DNA of 64,000 nucleotides from an uncultured Pelagibacteraceae bacterium (GTDB lineage Bacteria > Pseudomonadota > Alphaproteobacteria > Pelagibacterales > Pelagibacteraceae): contig CABYUV010000001.1 in assembly GCA_902522115.1 (NCBI GenBank), positions 62,001 through 126,000 of the forward strand, read 5' to 3'. Of this stretch, positions 27,738-48,455 are shown in pieces. The notes beneath the pieces were generated by a model, which saw only the letters and a list, made by a program, of their open reading frames with translations, was not told the DNA's origin and searched no databases. Position numbers and translations under genes: made by a program. Each line of letters starts with the position of its first letter. The stretch's first letter is position 1.

Positions 27738-28586
27738 TTATTTAGCTTTATAACCTAAACCAATATTATTTGTTTTTTTACTTGCATCCATAATTTTTGG
27801 ATATTCATAATTTAATCCTAAAAGCTGTCGTACTTTTGGATTTGAATTGTTTTTAAAGTCTTCAGATAAATAAGTGACTAAATCTTCAACTGGTTTTATA
27901 TATTTAGGAAGAAACTCTATCAGTAATGCTGCTCTTTGATGATTTGATTTATTAGATGATGCTCCATGCCAACAGTTACCATTAAAAAAAACTAAATCTC
28001 CAGGATTAGCAATCATTTGTTGTTTATTTGAAAAATCATCATTTTCATTCGGATAGTGTAATTTCTTCTGTGATCCAGGTATATATGCAGTTGCTCCTGA
28101 TTGTTCTGAACAAATATCTAGAGGTATAGTAGCCTGACAGTTTTGTGCAAATGAACTATTAAGACCCATGGGAAAAGTCTCGCTTTTATAAAAATCCCAA
28201 TACGGATAATCGATATGAAGTTCTTGACCTATAGATCCTGGTAGCAATCTACTTGCGCAGTAAGATCCACAAAAAAATTCTGAACCTAAAAGTTTAGACA
28301 TTAAGCTAAAAATAATATCGTTTGTTATTAATTTACTAAAAATCTCACCTTTACCAAACAAATTCCATATCCTTTGCTGAAGTTTAATTTTGTCAGATGC
28401 TTCAGCCTCAGCATTAAAGTGGGTTTCTTTTTGCTCCTGAGTATCTGCAAAATAATTAACAATCTCTCTTGCTTCTTTGATATCATTTAAATTATATGCA
28501 TTTTCAATAACTATAACTCCAGACTCATGCATTAATTCGTTTATTGCTTCAATAATATTAAAGTTATTTATTGAGAATTTCCGCAT
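27738..28586 (-). CDS. Phytanoyl-CoA dioxygenase (PhyH) family oxygenase
   Basis: A 282-aa Fe(II)/2-oxoglutarate oxygenase. The iron facial triad is H124 and D126 in QELHIDYPYW and H207 in CWHGASSN; R218 in NHQRAAL is placed to bind 2-oxoglutarate. Small-molecule hydroxylation or dealkylation is expected. It lies between the sugar ABC ATPase (44 bp upstream) and the SDR, which suggests that it acts on the imported compound, for example by oxidative demethylation. The substrate is unknown. Confidence 0.82.
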   Translation of the reverse strand: MRKFSINNFNIIEAINELMHESGVIVIENAYNLNDIKEAREIVNYFADTQEQKETHFNAEAEASDKIKLQQRIWNLFGKGEIFSKLITNDIIFSLMSKLLGSEFFCGSYCASRLLPGSIGQELHIDYPYWDFYKSETFPMGLNSSFAQNCQATIPLDICSEQSGATAYIPGSQKKLHYPNENDDFSNKQQMIANPGDLVFFNGNCWHGASSNKSNHQRAALLIEFLPKYIKPVEDLVTYLSEDFKNNSNPKVRQLLGLNYEYPKIMDASKKTNNIGLGYKAK

Positions 28587-36948: not shown

Positions 36949-37953
36949 ATGACTCAAAACAAATCTAAAATTGCTTTATTGCTAGGAGATCCTGCGGGGA
37001 TAGGTCCAGAGTTAATTTCAAAACTTTTGAATGATGATATTACTAAAAAAGCAAACATAGTCATCATTGGTGAAAAACAAGTATTTGAAAACGGAAATAA
37101 TATTACTGGTATTTTTCATAAATTAGATGTTGTTGAAAATTTTGATGAAATAGATTTTAATAAATCTAATCGATTTTTATTAGATATTTCAAAAGGAAAA
37201 AATCATAAATATAAATTAGCTGTACCTTCCAAAGAATCTGGTGAAAGTGTATTAGAAGCTTTATATTTAGCTTTAACACTCGCTAAAGAAAAAAAAATAG
37301 ATGCAATCAATTTTGCACCAATGAATAAAACAAGTTTAAAACTTGGAGGAAACAAGCATTCTGATGAGTTGCAGTTAATGGCTGAAAAGCTTGGAGTAGA
37401 TAGCTTTTGCTGTGAATTTAATGTCATAGATGATTTTTGGACGGCAAGAGTAACTTCCCATATTCCAATAAAAGAAGTTGCTCAACATATTACAAAAGAA
37501 AATATCATGAAGCCGATAAAACTTATAAATGAAGTTATGGAGTTGAATGGTGTAAAAAATCCTCGAATTGCTGTTCAGGCACTTAATCCACACGCTGAGT
37601 TTGGTACAGAGGAAAAAGATGAAATTATACCAGCAATTGAGGAAGCAAAAAAACTTGGTTACAATGTTGATGGTCCTTTACCGTGTGACACATCTTTTGT
37701 GGTTGCATATAAAAATAAAAATCATGATTGTATGGTTGGCATGTATCATGATGCACTTCAATCTGGGCTAAAAGCATTTGGCTTCGACAGAGGCGTAACA
37801 GTTCAAGGAGGATTAACTGTACCAGTAACTACTACAGCTCATGGTTCTGCATTTGCTATTGCAGGAAAAAATGAGGCTAATTTAGCACCAATTTTAAATT
37901 CTTTTAAAATTGCTTTGTCTATGGCTGAGAATAAAAATAAATCTATTAATTAA
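36949..37953 (+). CDS. PdxA-family 4-phosphohydroxy-L-threonine dehydrogenase-like protein
   Basis: A 334-aa NAD-dependent dehydrogenase. The three metal-binding histidines are kept: in TSHIPIKEVAQHI, ALNPHAEFG and MYHDALQSG, and the C-terminal AHGSAFAIAG block is typical. PdxA makes the 3-amino-2-oxopropyl phosphate precursor of vitamin B6; PdxA2 paralogues act in breakdown of four-carbon sugar acids. Sitting alone, divergent from tctC and next to Gfo/Idh and IolD-like genes, a catabolic role is more likely. No DUF1537 kinase, the usual PdxA2 partner, is seen here. Confidence 0.8.
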   Translation: MTQNKSKIALLLGDPAGIGPELISKLLNDDITKKANIVIIGEKQVFENGNNITGIFHKLDVVENFDEIDFNKSNRFLLDISKGKNHKYKLAVPSKESGESVLEALYLALTLAKEKKIDAINFAPMNKTSLKLGGNKHSDELQLMAEKLGVDSFCCEFNVIDDFWTARVTSHIPIKEVAQHITKENIMKPIKLINEVMELNGVKNPRIAVQALNPHAEFGTEEKDEIIPAIEEAKKLGYNVDGPLPCDTSFVVAYKNKNHDCMVGMYHDALQSGLKAFGFDRGVTVQGGLTVPVTTTAHGSAFAIAGKNEANLAPILNSFKIALSMAENKNKSIN

Positions 37954-39131: not shown

Positions 39132-40976
39132 TTATACACCTTGTCTTTGTTTACCTTTTCCTTCTTTATAAAGTTTTAAAGCCTCTTCATTTTCTTTAGT
39201 GGTTGAAATTTCTAAAGTTGGACTATCCCAAAAAGATGAGCCTTCAACCCATTTGTAAGCATGAGTTTTAATTGAAATAACATAAGTCACATCAGATGCT
39301 TTTGCTCTTTTAAATGCAGCTTCAAGATCTGAAATTGAAGTAACGTGTTCAGATTTTGCACCCATACTTTCCGCATGTTTTGCAAAATCTACATCAACTA
39401 AGCCAGGTGCGTTAGAACTCTTTAATAAGTTGTTGTACTCTTTACCACCTTTAAATAATTGTAATCGATTAATAACTGCAAAGCCTCCGTTGTCACAAAC
39501 AATTATAATCAATTTTTTTTTTGTGATAACTGAAGAATAAATGTCGGTATTATTTAATAGATAAGATCCATCTCCTACAAAAGAAATTACTTCTTTATCT
39601 GGATTTGCCATTTTGATTCCCAAAGCTCCAGAAATTTCATAACCCATACAACTAAAACCCCATTCTGTTTCATGAGTATTTAGTTCTCTTGGTCTCCAAA
39701 CTTGAATTACCTCACCAACTAAACCTCCTGCAGCTGTAACTGCAATATCTGTTGGATCAGAATTTTTATAGATTGCACCAATTGCTTGAACATAACTTGG
39801 AACTTCTTGATTAGTTGGAGCACTCTCTTTATCTATATGCTCATTCCACGACTTAAGCTCAATTTGAGATTTTTTATTCCAATCTTCTCCTACTTTCCAG
39901 TCACCTAAAGCTTTAGAAAGTTCAGTTAACGAAACTTTTGCATCTCCAACAACTGCTTGTGCTAAATGTTTATTAGCATCATATCTTGATACATTGATAG
40001 AAACTAATTTGAAATTTTCGTTTTCAAAATTTGCCCATGATCCAGTTGTAAAATCAGCAAGTTTTGTTCCAACTGCAATAGCAAGATCAGTTTCTTTAGC
40101 TAATGTATTTGTATTTTTTCCTCCTAGACCTCCAATTTGACCTGCAAAATGAGAATGGTCTCTCTTCATTGTTGAGTAGCCCATTACAGTTTGTGTAACT
40201 GGGATGTTGTGTTTAATTGCAAACTGACTTAATTCTTCCATTGCGTCTGAATAAAATACTCCACCTCCAGATATTATTATTGGATTTTTTGAAGATTTAA
40301 TTTTAACAGCTGCTTCTTTTATTTGAAATTCATCTGGTCTTGGTCTTCGAATTGTGTGAACTTTTTCTTGAAAAAATTCTAATGGATAATCAAAAGTTTG
40401 ACCTTGGATATCTTGACTCAACGAAATACAAGCTGGGCCACAATCAGCTGGATCTAACATTGTTTGAACTGCTATTGGAAATGATTGAATTATTTGTTCG
40501 GGTCTTGTGATACGATCAAAATATCTCGTAACTGGTTTAAAAGCGTCGTTTGCAGTTGTGCTTGGGTTGTTAAATTGTTCAACTTGTTGCAATACTGGAT
40601 CTGGCATTCTATTTGCATAAGTATCACCAGGTAAAAATAAAATTGGTAATCTATTGCTCATAGCAACCGCAGCAGCTGTAATCATATTTGTTGCTCCAGG
40701 TCCAACAGATGATGTCGCTACAAAAATTTGTTGTCTTCTTTTTGCTCTTGCATAACCAATTCCTGTAAGAGCCATATTTTGCTCATGATGACCTCTATAT
40801 GTTGGAAGATCTTTTTGATTTTCCTCTAATGCTTGACCTAAGCAAGCTACGTTTCCATGTCCAAAAATTCCAAAGACACCTGGAAATAAAGGTTCTTTTT
40901 TGCCGTTAATTAATATTTTCTGAGCAATTAAATATTTAACTATTGCATGAGCACATGTAAGGGTAATTTTTTTCAT
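39132..40976 (-). CDS. iolD: ThDP-dependent trihydroxycyclohexane-1,2-dione hydrolase (IolD-like)
   Basis: A 614-aa ThDP enzyme. IolD hydrolyses the ring of 3D-trihydroxycyclohexane-1,2-dione to 5-deoxy-glucuronate in myo-inositol breakdown. Specific IolD blocks are GVFGIFGHGNVACLGQALEE, PDPVLQQVEQF, FKPVTRYFDRITRPEQ and the Mg/ThDP motif GDGSYLLNNT near 470. E65 in HHEQNM is the ThDP-activating glutamate. It lies upstream of a Gfo/Idh gene and is divergent from an aldehyde dehydrogenase. IolE and IolG are about 18-20 kb further right. Confidence 0.85.
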   Translation of the reverse strand: MKKITLTCAHAIVKYLIAQKILINGKKEPLFPGVFGIFGHGNVACLGQALEENQKDLPTYRGHHEQNMALTGIGYARAKRRQQIFVATSSVGPGATNMITAAAVAMSNRLPILFLPGDTYANRMPDPVLQQVEQFNNPSTTANDAFKPVTRYFDRITRPEQIIQSFPIAVQTMLDPADCGPACISLSQDIQGQTFDYPLEFFQEKVHTIRRPRPDEFQIKEAAVKIKSSKNPIIISGGGVFYSDAMEELSQFAIKHNIPVTQTVMGYSTMKRDHSHFAGQIGGLGGKNTNTLAKETDLAIAVGTKLADFTTGSWANFENENFKLVSINVSRYDANKHLAQAVVGDAKVSLTELSKALGDWKVGEDWNKKSQIELKSWNEHIDKESAPTNQEVPSYVQAIGAIYKNSDPTDIAVTAAGGLVGEVIQVWRPRELNTHETEWGFSCMGYEISGALGIKMANPDKEVISFVGDGSYLLNNTDIYSSVITKKKLIIIVCDNGGFAVINRLQLFKGGKEYNNLLKSSNAPGLVDVDFAKHAESMGAKSEHVTSISDLEAAFKRAKASDVTYVISIKTHAYKWVEGSSFWDSPTLEISTTKENEEALKLYKEGKGKQRQGV

Positions 40977-42515: not shown

Positions 42516-43310
42516 ATGAGAAAAAATAAGGTTAAACAAATGATGAAAGACGGCAAACCCGTCATTAATGGCTGGTGTGCAATTCCAAGTACTGCATCTG
42601 CTGAAGCTATGGCTCATCAAGGTTGGGATTCTCTAACTGTGGATATGCAACATGGTTTAGTTGATTACAGTAATGCACTACCAATGATGCAAACAATATC
42701 TACAACAGAGGTAACTCCTTTGGCAAGAGTAAATTGGAATGAACCAGGTCAAATAATGAAAATATTAGATGCTGGGTGTTATGGAATTATATGCCCAATG
42801 GTAAGCAATAAAAAAGAGGCAGAAAACTTTGTTCAAGCATGCATGTATCCACCTGATGGTTATAGAAGTTTTGGTCCTGTTAGAGGTTTAATTTACGGTG
42901 GAGCTGATTATGCAGATCACGCTAATGATGAAATACTTAAATTAGCAATGATAGAAACAAAAGAATCCCTAGAAAATCTTGATGAAATTATGTCTACACC
43001 TGGTGTCGACGGGATTTACATTGGACCAGCAGATTTAAGTTTAGCTATAGGAGAAAAACCTGGGTTTGACAGACCAGAGTCTACAAAAGCTTATTCAGAA
43101 ATTTTAAGAATTTTAGAACATGCAAAAAAAAATAATATTTTTGCAGGAATTCATAATGGTACCACAGAATATGCAACCAAGATGATTGAAAAAGGATTTA
43201 ATTTTGTAACTATAGCATCTGATTTAAGAGCCCTGAGTGCTGGTGCAAAAGCTACAGTTGATAAAATGAAAGGTTCTTTGTCAAAAAAAGACGATAACGC
43301 TACTTACTAA
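42516..43310 (+). CDS. HpcH/HpaI family class II aldolase
   Basis: A 264-aa (beta/alpha)8 aldolase acting on 2-keto-3-deoxy sugar acids to give pyruvate and an aldehyde. Family features are WDSLTVDMQHGLVDY, the metal-ligand glutamate in LAMIETKESL and the aspartate in GIYIGPADLSLAIG. It resembles the 2-dehydro-3-deoxyglucarate (GarL) and 4-hydroxy-2-oxoheptanedioate branch. It is coupled to the ALDH gene. The aldolase IolJ is absent from the window, so this enzyme could replace it. Confidence 0.88.
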   Translation: MRKNKVKQMMKDGKPVINGWCAIPSTASAEAMAHQGWDSLTVDMQHGLVDYSNALPMMQTISTTEVTPLARVNWNEPGQIMKILDAGCYGIICPMVSNKKEAENFVQACMYPPDGYRSFGPVRGLIYGGADYADHANDEILKLAMIETKESLENLDEIMSTPGVDGIYIGPADLSLAIGEKPGFDRPESTKAYSEILRILEHAKKNNIFAGIHNGTTEYATKMIEKGFNFVTIASDLRALSAGAKATVDKMKGSLSKKDDNATY

Positions 43311-44122
43311 TCTATTTGATCTAAAAATTTCTCAAATTGTTTTTTTTCTAAATTAGATGATTGTTTTTTTCCAGGAAATTTACCAGAAATTGAGTCCTTT
43401 TTAAAAGCTTTAAGAGCTTTTAATCTCTCAATTTTAATTTCATCTCTAAGTCTTAATAAATTTCCGTATGCTTTAGAATGTCTTGGAGGATTTTTAGTAT
43501 CACCACAAATATCTTCCATAAATAAATACATTACATCAGCATTTTTTCCTGAACCTAATGAAACAGTAACAATATCTGTGCGCTTTGAAATTTCACCCAT
43601 TACATTTTCTGGTATAACTTCACACTCTGCAGAAAAAGCACCTGCATCTTCTAATCTTTTAAATTTTTTAAATAGATCATATGCTTCATCAGCAGTTTTG
43701 CCCACTGCTCTCAAACCACCAATCCAAGTAGATTTTCTTGGAACCAAACCTAAATGCCCCATTACTGGTACATCTTCTTTAGCTAGCATTTCAACTATAT
43801 CCATACTTCTAGGAGTCATAACTGCATCTGCACCATTTTCTAAAGCTTTAAAAGCTCCACGCATAATATCCTCTGCAGTTACAAACTCATTCAATACTAA
43901 AGCAGCTGTTAAAAATAAATTTTTTGAACCTTCTCTTACAGGAATTACATTTTTTGCGTTTGATATAATCATGTCAAATCCCGCTTTTTCTGCTGCCTCT
44001 GCTTCTTCAATATTGTTCGCAGTAACTTGCGTAAATTTTCTTTTACCCTTAGCTATTTTTAAGTCTCCAACAGTTAAAGTTCGCTTTGCTGGTTTAGCAG
44101 CCCATGTATAGATATTCTTCAT
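43307..44122 (-). CDS. PanB-like protein lacking hydroxymethyltransferase residues
   Basis: A 271-aa TIM-barrel protein related to ketopantoate hydroxymethyltransferase by VPVMGHLGLVPRKS, followed by IGGLRAVGKTADEA, and by a conserved glutamate in AECEVIPENV. The E. coli PanB metal ligands D45 and D84 and K112 are not kept: the matching segments read IISNAKN, FLTAALVL and AVMTPRS. A vitamin B5 role is therefore unlikely. It overlaps the MarR-like gene by 4 bp. Possible roles are another aldolase or lyase of the PEP mutase/PanB superfamily. Confidence 0.75.
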   Translation of the reverse strand: MKNIYTWAAKPAKRTLTVGDLKIAKGKRKFTQVTANNIEEAEAAEKAGFDMIISNAKNVIPVREGSKNLFLTAALVLNEFVTAEDIMRGAFKALENGADAVMTPRSMDIVEMLAKEDVPVMGHLGLVPRKSTWIGGLRAVGKTADEAYDLFKKFKRLEDAGAFSAECEVIPENVMGEISKRTDIVTVSLGSGKNADVMYLFMEDICGDTKNPPRHSKAYGNLLRLRDEIKIERLKALKAFKKDSISGKFPGKKQSSNLEKKQFEKFLDQID

Positions 44123-44535
44123 TTGATTCCTTTGTAAAGAATATCTCTTCTATCAATAAACTCCTCAAAGGTTTTAATGGTAATTACAGAGGGCAAGATA
44201 AAAATAGATCTTTTGTCTCTCTCATTTCTAATAATTCTAAAATAACCTTTTTTAATGGCTGTATCGATATAGACGTTTGAAGTCAAATATGATTTCTCAA
44301 TTACTTTAAGTAGTTGATTTTTAGTAATTGATTTATTTTTGTAATAAGCAAGCATAACCATATGTAACATTATCCAATGTTGCGGGGTTAAAGAAAACCA
44401 ATTCAATAATTCATTGGCTAATCTTCCTTCAAAATCACCAAGTGAAATTTCTGCTAGTTGAATTCTTTTTTGAGTTAATTTTGGAATTTTTTTTTGTTCT
44501 TCGAAGTGTTTTGGGTATTTAAACTGTCTTTTCAT
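44119..44535 (-). CDS. MarR-like winged-helix regulator
   Basis: A 138-aa DNA-binding protein. Residues about 45-115 form a winged helix: LTPQHWIMLHMVMLAYY, KSITKNQLLKVIEKS, TSNVYIDTAIKKGYF as the recognition helix, then IIRNERDKRSIFIL as the wing. It is the only clear transcription regulator seen in the island and lies between the DUF1907 and PanB-like genes, so it probably controls them. The ligand is unknown. Confidence 0.7.
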   Translation of the reverse strand: MKRQFKYPKHFEEQKKIPKLTQKRIQLAEISLGDFEGRLANELLNWFSLTPQHWIMLHMVMLAYYKNKSITKNQLLKVIEKSYLTSNVYIDTAIKKGYFRIIRNERDKRSIFILPSVITIKTFEEFIDRRDILYKGIK

Positions 44536-44562: not shown

Positions 44563-45540
44563 CTATTCAATACTATTTTTATTTATTAGTTCTTTATAAA
44601 TATTGTTTACTCTGTGTACTTCCGTTGCAGTGTTGAAATATCCTTCATATTCTATCTCATTAGGTGTCACGTCAAAATGATAATGACCAGCATCTCTATG
44701 GTGCTCGTAAGAATGAAAGTGAGTATGCTCACCAGACTCTCTTAAATTTAATTTTCCTCCTGTAGGATCGCCAGTCCAAAGAACTGTATAACACTGCAAT
44801 TTTGGTCCAACTGGTTCATAGAATTGAAGAAAATCTTTAACACATTTCATTTGTTTTGGATCGTAATACTCATACTTAATATCTTTATAATCTGGTTGAA
44901 CATGTGATCTTATTTTTCCATCTAACACTCTAAATACACCAGAGAGAGACATATGCTCGTTATTTTTAATATTTAAATTTTTTGATAATGAAGACCTCAT
45001 TGCTTGAGGTAAAGATCCTTGTTCTCCTTTTCTACCTTTAATTTTTATTTTAATAACTTTTCCTTTTTTACCATCTGTGTAATAAATGTTTCCAAGTCCA
45101 CCATGTTTTTTTGCAGAATATTTTTCAACAATACATTTTTTTTCTGGACTTACTCTTGCAATTATTGATTTAGACTCATCAGTAATTAAATTTTCATTAA
45201 TAATTAATTCACCACAGTGACCATCTAAACATGACATTGCACCTGATCCAGCTCCTAAAGCATAAGATTTTTCAGAGCCAATCATTTTAGATATTTCTTG
45301 ATAGTCAAACTCTGCACCAATAAATTTTGGATCATGCATATAAGGCTCTCCACCAACGTCTATTATTTTTTGATTTCCACTGATTCCTTCTGAGGGACAA
45401 TCCCAATCTCTAAGATTAGGACAATCTACCACTTCTATTTCAACTTTTTTGAAATTTTCAGACAATCCTTTTCTTAATGAATCTGAAATATTCTCTAATG
45501 AATATTCTTTAAAAGTTCCTTTTTCTATTTTTAATTGCAT
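44563..45540 (-). CDS. C11orf54/DUF1907 family ester hydrolase-like protein
   Basis: A 325-aa protein matching the animal C11orf54 (PTD012) family along its length: VEVVDCPNL-like start, VGGEPYM, LGAGSGAMSC, VEKYSAKKHGGLG, RVLDGKIRSHVQPD and the C-terminal zinc site with H272, H274 (EHTHFHS) and H286 (GHYHFD). The human protein has a zinc centre and shows ester hydrolase activity in vitro; its physiological substrate is unclear. Here it is 27 bp from a MarR-like gene and near PanB-like and PanE-like genes, which suggests a lactone or ester step in a catabolic route. Confidence 0.8.
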   Translation of the reverse strand: MQLKIEKGTFKEYSLENISDSLRKGLSENFKKVEIEVVDCPNLRDWDCPSEGISGNQKIIDVGGEPYMHDPKFIGAEFDYQEISKMIGSEKSYALGAGSGAMSCLDGHCGELIINENLITDESKSIIARVSPEKKCIVEKYSAKKHGGLGNIYYTDGKKGKVIKIKIKGRKGEQGSLPQAMRSSLSKNLNIKNNEHMSLSGVFRVLDGKIRSHVQPDYKDIKYEYYDPKQMKCVKDFLQFYEPVGPKLQCYTVLWTGDPTGGKLNLRESGEHTHFHSYEHHRDAGHYHFDVTPNEIEYEGYFNTATEVHRVNNIYKELINKNSIE

Positions 45541-45628: not shown

Positions 45629-46573
45629 ATGATTAATAAAAATTTAAAAGTAGCTGTGCTTGGTGCAGGAGCAATGGGTTGCTTATTTGGCGGTTTACTT
45701 GCTGAAAAAGGTTTAAGTGTAATTTTAATTGATGTTTGGAAAGAACATGTAGATGCAATTAATAAAGATGGTTTGAAAATGGACGGACATGGAGGTAATC
45801 GAATAATTAAAGTCAAAGCCACCTCAGATCCATCTTCTTTAGACAAAGTAGATGCTGTAATTGTTATGTGTAAAGCAACAGCTTTAGATCCAGCATTAAA
45901 TAGTATTAAAAATATTATAGGAGATAAAACAGTATTCATGTCTTTTCAAAATGGTATTGGTCATGAAGCAATTATTCAAAGTATTGTGGGTGATGAAAAA
46001 GTGATAGGTGGAACAACTACACAGGCTTCAAATATTTTGGGACCAGGACATATAATGAATCATGGTTCGTTGCCATCTTGGATTGGTGAGTACGAGGGAG
46101 GAATTTCTGATCGAATTAAAGAAATAGCAGAAACTTTTACAGCTCATAACCTTGAAATGATTGCTGCAGAAGATGTAAAAAAAAGAAAATGGATGAAACT
46201 TTTTGCTTTAACAGCAATTGGTCCTTTGTCTGCAATTTTCGATCTTCACCATACTGACTTATATATAAACAACAAAGCAAATAAAGTATCTCGCGGTTTA
46301 GGTAAAGAAATAATTTTAGAAACTAGAGAAGTTGCACTTGCTGATGGTGTTAATGTTTCTGAAGATGAGTGCTTATTTATGTTTAATAAAATTGTAGATT
46401 CGATGCAAACTAACAAGTCATCAATGGCTTTTGATGTTCAATACAAGAGAAAAACTGAAATAGACTTTATTAGTGGTGCAGTTTCAAAAATAGGTAAAAA
46501 ACATGGTGTTAAAACCCCATTAAATGATCTTATGTATAAAATGATCAAAGTGAAAGAAGGTATGTACAGCTAA
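45629..46573 (+). CDS. Ketopantoate reductase (PanE/ApbA) family oxidoreductase
   Basis: A 314-aa NADP-type dehydrogenase. GAGAMGCLFGG near residues 12-22 starts the Rossmann fold. The catalytic lysine is kept in KWMKLFALTAIGPLSAI, but the two asparagines that hold ketopantoate in E. coli PanE (N180, N184) are replaced by other residues. It therefore probably reduces or oxidises a different 2-keto or 2-hydroxy acid. It abuts the following oxygenase gene with no gap. Confidence 0.8.
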   Translation: MINKNLKVAVLGAGAMGCLFGGLLAEKGLSVILIDVWKEHVDAINKDGLKMDGHGGNRIIKVKATSDPSSLDKVDAVIVMCKATALDPALNSIKNIIGDKTVFMSFQNGIGHEAIIQSIVGDEKVIGGTTTQASNILGPGHIMNHGSLPSWIGEYEGGISDRIKEIAETFTAHNLEMIAAEDVKKRKWMKLFALTAIGPLSAIFDLHHTDLYINNKANKVSRGLGKEIILETREVALADGVNVSEDECLFMFNKIVDSMQTNKSSMAFDVQYKRKTEIDFISGAVSKIGKKHGVKTPLNDLMYKMIKVKEGMYS

Positions 46574-47443
46574 ATGCTAAGTACAAATAGATTAAAAAAA
46601 ATCAAAAGCAACTTTCCTGTTTTAGTTGGAAACAACGTTGTTTCAAAAAATATCTGTAATTTATTAATAAAAGAAATCATTAACTCAAAATCATTTGATG
46701 ATATGATTATGGGAGGTAGAAGCAGAATTAACAAAGGTTCAAAAAATTTTAATTTATATATCAAAAATTCAGTTAACTCCGCAAAACTTTTTAAACTTTT
46801 TAATAGTAAATCTTTTTATAAAAAAATTGAAAATCTTTTTATAAAAAATTTTAAGGATGGATCGTGGGTCAATTTATATAAACCACAATCATTTAGTCCT
46901 AATAAGTTTACTGTTAAAAAAAAATTAAATTCAAATGAATTAAAAAAAATGTTAGGTAATAATTATTCTAATCCTAAAGTAAATTTAGATATAGACTTTT
47001 CAGTATCAAAAGGAGGATATAGATTACGACCTCACAGAGATGATATAACTAGATTATATAATTTCTTAATTTATTTAAATGACATACCAAAAAAAAATGG
47101 TGGCTCTCTTACTATCTACAGAAAAAAAGCAAAAAAAAATTTAAGAAAGAGTTTTAGAAGATTTCCAAAAATAACTGAACTTGAGATAGTCAAGTCTTTT
47201 ACGCCTAAAAAAGGAACTGTCGTTTTTTTTCAATCTACTCCAAATTCTTATCATGGAGTAAAGAGGTTTACAGAGAGAAATTGTCCAAAACGTTTTTTTA
47301 TTTATGGAAGTTATGCTTTAAATAAACCAGTAATATGGAATTACAAAGGGATATCATATTATCCTCATATAGTTAGCAACAAAAAAAAAATGCTTACTTC
47401 TTTTCATGACGCGAACTATTTAACCACACCACCAAACCATTGA
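46574..47443 (+). CDS. 2OG-Fe(II) oxygenase superfamily protein
   Basis: A 289-aa, very lysine-rich protein. A prolyl-hydroxylase-like iron site is visible: H154 and D156 in LRPHRDD, H227 in NSYHGV, and an arginine near 240 (CPKRFF) for 2-oxoglutarate. The N-terminal 100 residues match nothing I recognise. Such proteins act on peptides, nucleotide sugars or small molecules. It follows the PanE-like gene directly. Confidence 0.7.
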   Translation: MLSTNRLKKIKSNFPVLVGNNVVSKNICNLLIKEIINSKSFDDMIMGGRSRINKGSKNFNLYIKNSVNSAKLFKLFNSKSFYKKIENLFIKNFKDGSWVNLYKPQSFSPNKFTVKKKLNSNELKKMLGNNYSNPKVNLDIDFSVSKGGYRLRPHRDDITRLYNFLIYLNDIPKKNGGSLTIYRKKAKKNLRKSFRRFPKITELEIVKSFTPKKGTVVFFQSTPNSYHGVKRFTERNCPKRFFIYGSYALNKPVIWNYKGISYYPHIVSNKKKMLTSFHDANYLTTPPNH

Positions 47444-47474: not shown

Positions 47475-48455
47475 ATGATAAATAATTTTCAAAAAAAATT
47501 GTACGAGAATGGTTATTTAATTATTAAAAATGTACTTAACTTTGAGAGAGACTTAAAACCAGTTCTTAAAGATATGGAATTTGTAATGGATTGCCTCATA
47601 CAAAAATATGCTAAAAGAAAAGAAGTCAAAAAAGTTCTTAATTTAGATTTTAGAAAAAAATATTCTTTTATTTCAAAACTTAATATCTATGATTTGGATC
47701 AATATTTTAATACAAGATTACCAAGAGACCACGTAAGAAAAGATAGCGATTATTTTGCTACTCAATCATTATGGAATTTAATTACTAATAAAAAAATTTT
47801 AGATGTTGTAGAAAAAATTTTAGGGACAGAAATAATGTCAAACCCGGTTCAAAATACTAGAATTAAACAACCAGAGAAAAAATTACCAAAAGGATCAATT
47901 CATGATGGTTTAAGTGGTAGAACACCTTGGCATCAAGATGCGGCTGTTTTAAATTCTAGGGGACAAAAATTAACAGATATGGTCACTGTTTGGATACCTT
48001 TTACTAAAACAACTAAGAAAAATGGATGCATGATTACAGTAAAAAAAATAAATAAAATGGGATTGTTAAATCATATATCTGGATATAGAGGACAAGTTGA
48101 ATTAAAAAATAGTGAATTACTTGATAATATGGAGCATGTTTATTTGGAAGCAAATATTGGTGATGTAATATTATTGCACAAACACTCTATACATTGTTCT
48201 TTACCAAATAGATCTGATGACTTTAGAATAAGTGCTGACCTCAGATATAATATAGCCGGACAACCTTCTGGCAGAGAACCTCTTCCAAATTTCTATGTGA
48301 GAAGTAAAAATAAAAAAAATATTCAAATAAAAAATTTCAAACAGTGGTTGGCTCTTTGGGAAAAGGCCAAAGAAAGTCGTGTTGGGAAATATGCTTTTAA
48401 ATATCCACTCCCAACTTATAAAACAAATAAAAGAGATTTATCAAAATTAATTTAA
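47475..48455 (+). CDS. Phytanoyl-CoA dioxygenase (PhyH) family oxygenase
   Basis: A 326-aa Fe(II)/2OG oxygenase with H153 and D155 in TPWHQDAAV, the distal histidine H240 in HSIHCSLPN, and R251 in DDFRISADLR. It lies 31 bp after another oxygenase of the same broad fold. Both are AT-rich and Lys-rich. Possible roles are oxidation of a methyl ether, betaine, phosphonate or lipid; the neighbours do not decide. Confidence 0.78.
   Translation: MINNFQKKLYENGYLIIKNVLNFERDLKPVLKDMEFVMDCLIQKYAKRKEVKKVLNLDFRKKYSFISKLNIYDLDQYFNTRLPRDHVRKDSDYFATQSLWNLITNKKILDVVEKILGTEIMSNPVQNTRIKQPEKKLPKGSIHDGLSGRTPWHQDAAVLNSRGQKLTDMVTVWIPFTKTTKKNGCMITVKKINKMGLLNHISGYRGQVELKNSELLDNMEHVYLEANIGDVILLHKHSIHCSLPNRSDDFRISADLRYNIAGQPSGREPLPNFYVRSKNKKNIQIKNFKQWLALWEKAKESRVGKYAFKYPLPTYKTNKRDLSKLI

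Follow-up and report, generated by a model that had tools for sequence, protein, structure and literature searches.

What does a relative of the human protein C11orf54 do in a marine bacterium, and which enzymes would it work with? The locus that raises this question lies in a 64,000-nucleotide stretch of a Pelagibacteraceae (SAR11) genome, which we refer to as the window. An earlier note on this DNA proposed that bacterial context might reveal the long-unclear function of the human protein, a premise that has since been overtaken, as C11orf54 was recognized in 2025 to be a BKG decarboxylase (EC 4.1.1.34), which takes CO2 off a sugar acid (Malatesta et al., as told in the commentary PMC12435205), a result also cited in PMC12921845. 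The esterase annotation of the family originated in the hydrolysis of p-nitrophenyl acetate by human PTD012; the human family member holds zinc by three conserved histidines, and its fold is structurally related to that of acetolactate decarboxylase (PMC12435205). The family, DUF1907, occurs in some bacteria (PMC12435205) and is listed among domains from marine metagenomes in PMC3597751. A function is thus already assigned in humans and the family is known in bacteria; what is new here is the bacterial gene context. Among the titles and opening lines of abstracts listed in our search of open-licence papers, none describes this SAR11 cluster.

The gene occupies positions 44563 to 45540 on the minus strand, with an ATG at 45540 and a stop codon ending at 44563. 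Its reading frame encodes 325 amino acids without an internal stop, and the plus strand across the same interval is full of stops. Pfam assigned the protein to one family only, DUF1907 (PF08925; 206.6 bits; cut-off, 25 bits; E value, 6.5e-61), and the match covered positions 1 to 285 of the 285-position profile and residues 22 to 311 of the protein. The sole match in the PDB was human PTD012/C11orf54 (1xcr; E value, 6.4e-40; residues 10 to 312), which is 39% identical over the matched stretch in a nine-row alignment of eight SAR11 proteins and 1xcr. NCBIfam, searched at an E value of 0.001, returned no family. The C11orf54-like protein that the earlier note had read from the letters is therefore exactly where it was placed, and the match does run along the whole family length. 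The bacterioplankton host holds as well, as the scan of genome contigs yielded 289 relatives, and the 80 that ranked highest against the window protein are without exception Pelagibacteraceae or Candidatus Pelagibacter by title. The composition of the gene is not odd (GC 0.296 in its own 2-kb bin, compared with 0.263 to 0.378 across the bins of the window). A scan for promoters and terminators stayed at the level of chance (29 promoter-like hits with 30.5 expected; 3 terminator-like hits with 2.0 expected).

The HTHFH and GHYHFD region, noticed previously, supplies H272 and H274 from the HTH pair and H286 and H288 from the GHYH pair, and the corresponding histidines in the 1xcr chain are 267, 269, 279, and 281. 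The distance from the second histidine of HTH to the last histidine of GHYH is 14 in the SAR11 protein and 12 in 1xcr, which agrees with the two additional residues that had been seen between the ligands. H272, H274, and H288 align with the zinc region of 1xcr as a three-histidine zinc motif and are the predicted ligands; which three of the 1xcr histidines bind zinc is our assumption. Residues E271 to F275, G285 to H288, and D290 do not vary across the nine rows of the alignment, the human row included. In addition, EHTH and GHYH stand at identical spacing at all 98 SAR11 loci collected (91 distinct proteins), which combine the best 80 relatives with 18 loci from sampled genomes and include some places twice. 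Among the 81 of these 98 copies that equal the window copy in length, dN/dS relative to it has a median of 0.084 and a maximum of 0.141; purifying selection acts on this gene. The AlphaFold2 model of the window protein, built with 16 close sequences, was poor (mean pLDDT, 39.6).

The gene order around DUF1907 in the window suggests partners. A PanE-like NAD(P) dehydrogenase of the ApbA/KPR family (45629 to 46573, plus strand) is transcribed away from DUF1907 across an 88-bp spacer. It is followed on the same strand directly, with no gap, by a 2-oxoglutarate (2OG)-Fe(II) oxygenase (46574 to 47443) and, after 31 bp, by a PhyH-family Fe(II)/2-oxoglutarate oxygenase (47475 to 48455). On the minus strand, 27 bp after DUF1907, a small gene (44119 to 44535) probably encodes a regulator, its SarA-type matches being weak and under cut-offs, and it overlaps by 4 bp a gene for a PanB-like protein of the Pantoate_transf family (43307 to 44122). 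The divergent PanE-like neighbor is found at 87 of the 98 loci and the small putative regulator at 86. At three of the 11 loci without this divergent neighbor, no more than 400 bp separate DUF1907 from the end of the contig; the other eight belong to the sister genera g8 and g9, where gene orders differ. Adjacency alone is unspecific in genus g1, because genes for HpcH (87 of 98 loci) and an aldehyde dehydrogenase (86 of 98), both located beyond the PanB-like gene in that genus, are as constant as the PanE-like gene.

The motifs of the neighbors fit a dehydrogenase and an oxygenase. The PanE-like protein passes the TIGR00745 model (234.8 bits; cut-off, 141.35), and its K190 and E277, presumably catalytic, lie in stretches that solved proteins of the KPR family also conserve. 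In the PhyH-family protein, H153, D155, and H240 (H-x-D...H) and the later R251 fit the usual motif, and we take their roles to be the customary ones. The PanB-like protein differs: aligned with Escherichia coli PanB (1m3u), it has A74, M102, and P104 opposite D84, K112, and E114, and retains a residue only at E168, opposite E181. Three of the four PanB active-site residues are thus lost, if the functional roles that we assume for these E. coli residues are right. As the protein also scores under both PanB-type NCBIfam cut-offs reported, hydroxymethyltransferase is an unreliable name for it. Pantothenate biosynthesis was considered for the PanE-like/PanB-like pair and rejected on the strength of this residue loss and of the genome content: many cluster-bearing genomes, e.g., G070, hold a second match to the PanB-like query, and PanC is present in all four that were checked. 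The latter two observations make it unlikely that the pair represents ordinary pantothenate genes.

A more telling arrangement is found in the two sister genera g8 (6 genomes) and g9 (3 genomes), where 6 to 9 kb lie between the PanE-like gene and DUF1907, except in G205, in which the two are on different contigs. At the loci read, the PanE-like gene stands in an operon-like run after genes of a LIV-type ABC transporter (binding protein in g8: L020:2239-3441) and is followed downstream by genes for an acetate-CoA-ligase-like enzyme, a crotonase, an MR/MLE enzyme, a CitE/HpcH-type lyase, and Gfo/Idh dehydrogenases. These operon neighbors may belong to an unrelated route. DUF1907 itself adjoins a gene for a protein of 256 to 259 amino acids (L020:9946-10725; L023:7884-8654) that is 39% identical between the two genera and weakly similar to 2-oxopent-4-enoate hydratases.

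Co-occurrence was analyzed by using each protein as a query on a sample of 247 genomes of the order and counting close orthologs. DUF1907 is present in 48 of these genomes, distributed over 3 of 10 genera. Close orthologs of the PanE-like protein (at least 76% identity) are found in exactly the same 48 and in none of the other 199; three of them are partial genes (G181, G258, and G251), and 11 further genomes with distant matches only (29 to 30%) were left out of the count. PhyH is present in 47 of the 48, plus G099, and was not found in G251, where the cluster contig appears to end inside the PanE-like gene. In G099, the PhyH gene lies as two opposite pieces at a contig end (L129:8053-9209), maybe an assembly artefact, and neither DUF1907 nor the PanE-like gene was found in that assembly. 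The second 2OG-Fe(II) oxygenase (at least 66% identity, leaving out a 38% match in G095) occurs in 41 of the 48 and is missing in the three g9 genomes, G126, G205, G226, and G251. The PanB-like protein occurs in 42 of these 48 genomes and, outside them, in G165 and G270 (at least 69%, one copy partial; the 41% match in G130 and others weaker still were disregarded). We claim no significance from the Fisher values for these associations, which overstate the support because genomes of the same order are related and the g1 genes are neighbors. The sharpest evidence comes from the nine g8 and g9 genomes with DUF1907, all of which encode both the PanE-like protein and PhyH in spite of the separated PanE-like gene, and the weight of support rests there.

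Taken with the zinc motif and the gene order, this pattern leads us to favor, as the probable reading, that SAR11 DUF1907 is a zinc-dependent decarboxylase of a beta-keto acid (probably bearing an alpha-hydroxyl group) that works with the PanE-like protein in a hydroxylate-oxidize-decarboxylate module of organic-acid catabolism. A hydroxyl group would first be introduced by the PhyH oxygenase; the PanE-like dehydrogenase would then oxidize it in an NAD(P)-dependent reaction, yielding the beta-keto acid that the DUF1907 enzyme would decarboxylate. Zinc decarboxylases generally act by polarizing a keto group and stabilizing the enolate; here, a Zn2+ ion held by H272, H274, and H288 would polarize the keto group and stabilize the enolate after the departure of CO2. 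The module would take part in the breakdown of a small organic acid, which the LIV (branched-chain-type) ABC transporter would import in g8 and g9. A point against the scheme is that the PanE family is known above all for acting on 2-keto acids; one has to suppose that the compound here is a 3-keto acid or else a 2-keto diacid with its distal carboxyl in the beta position. A fuller version of this scheme, which we advance tentatively and judge slightly short of an even chance, holds that an organic acid dissolved in the surface ocean is hydroxylated, oxidized, and decarboxylated by the PhyH, PanE-like, and DUF1907 proteins, and that the PanB-like protein, depleted of PanB active-site residues, is an extra lyase. 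The expectation that the bacterial context would be informative was upheld in part: the shared presence of the PanE-like protein (48 of 247 genomes) and PhyH (47 of 48) favors keto-acid decarboxylation over simple ester hydrolysis, but it does not name the substrate.

One rival to this scheme is the animal reaction itself, i.e., that the SAR11 protein is literally a BKG decarboxylase in a route from L-gulonate through 3-dehydro-L-gulonate to L-xylulose, followed by reduction and phosphorylation. The strong full-length likeness to the human enzyme and the sugar and cyclitol gene island around DUF1907 in the window speak for it. The remaining enzymes of such a route, however, were not seen in the four cluster-bearing genomes searched. 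FGGY_N identified one kinase each in G000, G070, and G078 and none in G196, and all three kinases are GlpK, scoring above the GlpK cut-off and under the XylB cut-off. Nor was a stand-alone CRYL1-type 3HCDH strongly matched in these genomes: the single strong 3HCDH_N (PF02737) matches of G000, G070, and G196 lie in proteins of 747 to 760 amino acids, G078 has no strong one, and the shorter matches are weak, with the PanE-like protein among them. In addition, the loci read in g8 and g9 showed none of the g1 neighbors IolD, aldehyde dehydrogenase, and HpcH. Genome completeness (87% for G000 and 92% for G196) tempers these absences, and L-xylulose could exit by another route, but we consider the animal-type route improbable. 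Because the human member is a decarboxylase and the rest of the animal route was not seen in four genomes, the reaction type is likely conserved with the human enzyme and the substrate is probably different, so that the SAR11 organic-acid route would be distinct from the animal pentose pathway.

Two further proposals depart from decarboxylation. An ester hydrolase or lactonase, in keeping with the long-standing annotation, could open an ester or lactone in the same catabolic route; human PTD012 does hydrolyze p-nitrophenyl acetate, yet its reported physiological activity is decarboxylation (PMC12435205). The dehydrogenase that co-occurs with DUF1907 is a better fit to the formation of a keto acid, and we therefore hold a hydrolase to be quite unlikely. 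Lactone intermediates are common in sugar-acid pathways, which would accommodate such an enzyme, but p-nitrophenyl acetate hydrolysis is also a common side activity of zinc sites. Alternatively, the chemistry may have changed in the SAR11 branch to that of a zinc lyase, tautomerase, or isomerase, marked by the enlarged zinc loop and by a cysteine-bearing segment (AMSCLDGHCGEL in the window). The two extra loop residues recur at all 98 loci, this segment in the eight SAR11 rows of the alignment is unlike the human row, and lyase-type families are among the neighbors. The zinc-region residues E271 to F275, G285 to H288, and D290 are nevertheless shared by the SAR11 and human rows, and the DUF1907 profile match is strong; we consider such a change very unlikely. 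We thus retain decarboxylation with a PanE-like partner as the preferred reading.

Besides the 48 genomes of the order, DUF1907 was detected in 4 of 61 genomes in a first sample of relatives and in 1 of 398 genomes of the phylum and 1 of 289 of the class, both being the genome of the window. As these two samples matched that genome alone, bacterial members outside the order were not reached. The viral contigs, phages, and plasmids searched contained no DUF1907 relative, and a mobile-element reading is therefore unsupported.

The wider surroundings of the gene form a long island of sugar, cyclitol, and organic-acid genes (24811 to 62873), several of whose gene labels are our own presumptive assignments. 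It includes several Gfo/Idh-type dehydrogenases, TIM-barrel isomerase-like genes, ABC and tripartite-type transport genes, three 2OG/PhyH oxygenases (starting at 27738, 46574, and 47475), and IolD (39132 to 40976), which scores above its NCBIfam cut-off. A PdxA-family dehydrogenase (36949 to 37953) also lies in this catabolic island, where it may be a sugar-acid phosphate dehydrogenase instead of an enzyme of vitamin B6 metabolism. Plasmids carry homologs of the PanB-like protein with up to 56.6% identity; in three rhizobial plasmid records, the neighbors are a sterol-desaturase-family protein, a 2Fe-2S protein, and an FAD oxidoreductase, and in a Leisingera record a sterol-desaturase-family gene, contexts that suggest an oxygenase partner for the PanB-like protein. 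Plasmid homologs of PhyH and the PanE-like protein are distant (32% and 36%, respectively, at best among the matches listed). Gene context and the comparison with plasmid relatives singled out no substrate class.

Collectively, the gene is a confirmed and well-conserved bacterial member of the DUF1907 family, and its interest lies in the putative SAR11 pathway linked to it. If the fuller version of the scheme is true, DUF1907 would act beyond the L-gulonate pathway, and its partner dehydrogenase would be no ortholog of CRYL1. SAR11 cells rank with the most numerous in the ocean, and since about one-fifth of the sampled genomes of the order (48 of 247) carry the gene, the compound that it acts on may make up a real share of dissolved organic carbon. 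The bacterial copies, seemingly used without the rest of the animal pathway, would therefore provide a compact, operon-linked system for probing the substrate breadth of a newly assigned human enzyme family.

Comparison with known systems places the SAR11 protein closest to human C11orf54/PTD012 (1xcr, PF08925), which it resembles over its full length, in the HTH...GHYH motif, and in the GAG and VGGxPY segments, whereas it is bacterial and its zinc loop is two residues longer. Its setting also differs from the human pathway in having a PanE-like partner, with no strong CRYL1-type match and no FGGY kinase except GlpK in the four genomes. Acetolactate decarboxylase shares the proposed chemistry, and a related fold is reported for the human homolog (PMC12435205), but the window protein has no Pfam match to acetolactate decarboxylase at an E value of 0.001, DUF1907 alone being reported. 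Among the neighbors, the PanE-like protein passes the subfamily cut-off of ketopantoate reductase (PanE, TIGR00745), whereas the PanB-like protein shares the Pfam family of the hydroxymethyltransferase PanB without the residues aligned to D84, K112, and E114. Finally, in rotifers DUF1907 is fused to a dehydrogenase domain of the 3HCDH type (PMC12435205), a link that is echoed in SAR11, where DUF1907 is paired with a PanE-like dehydrogenase from a different family.
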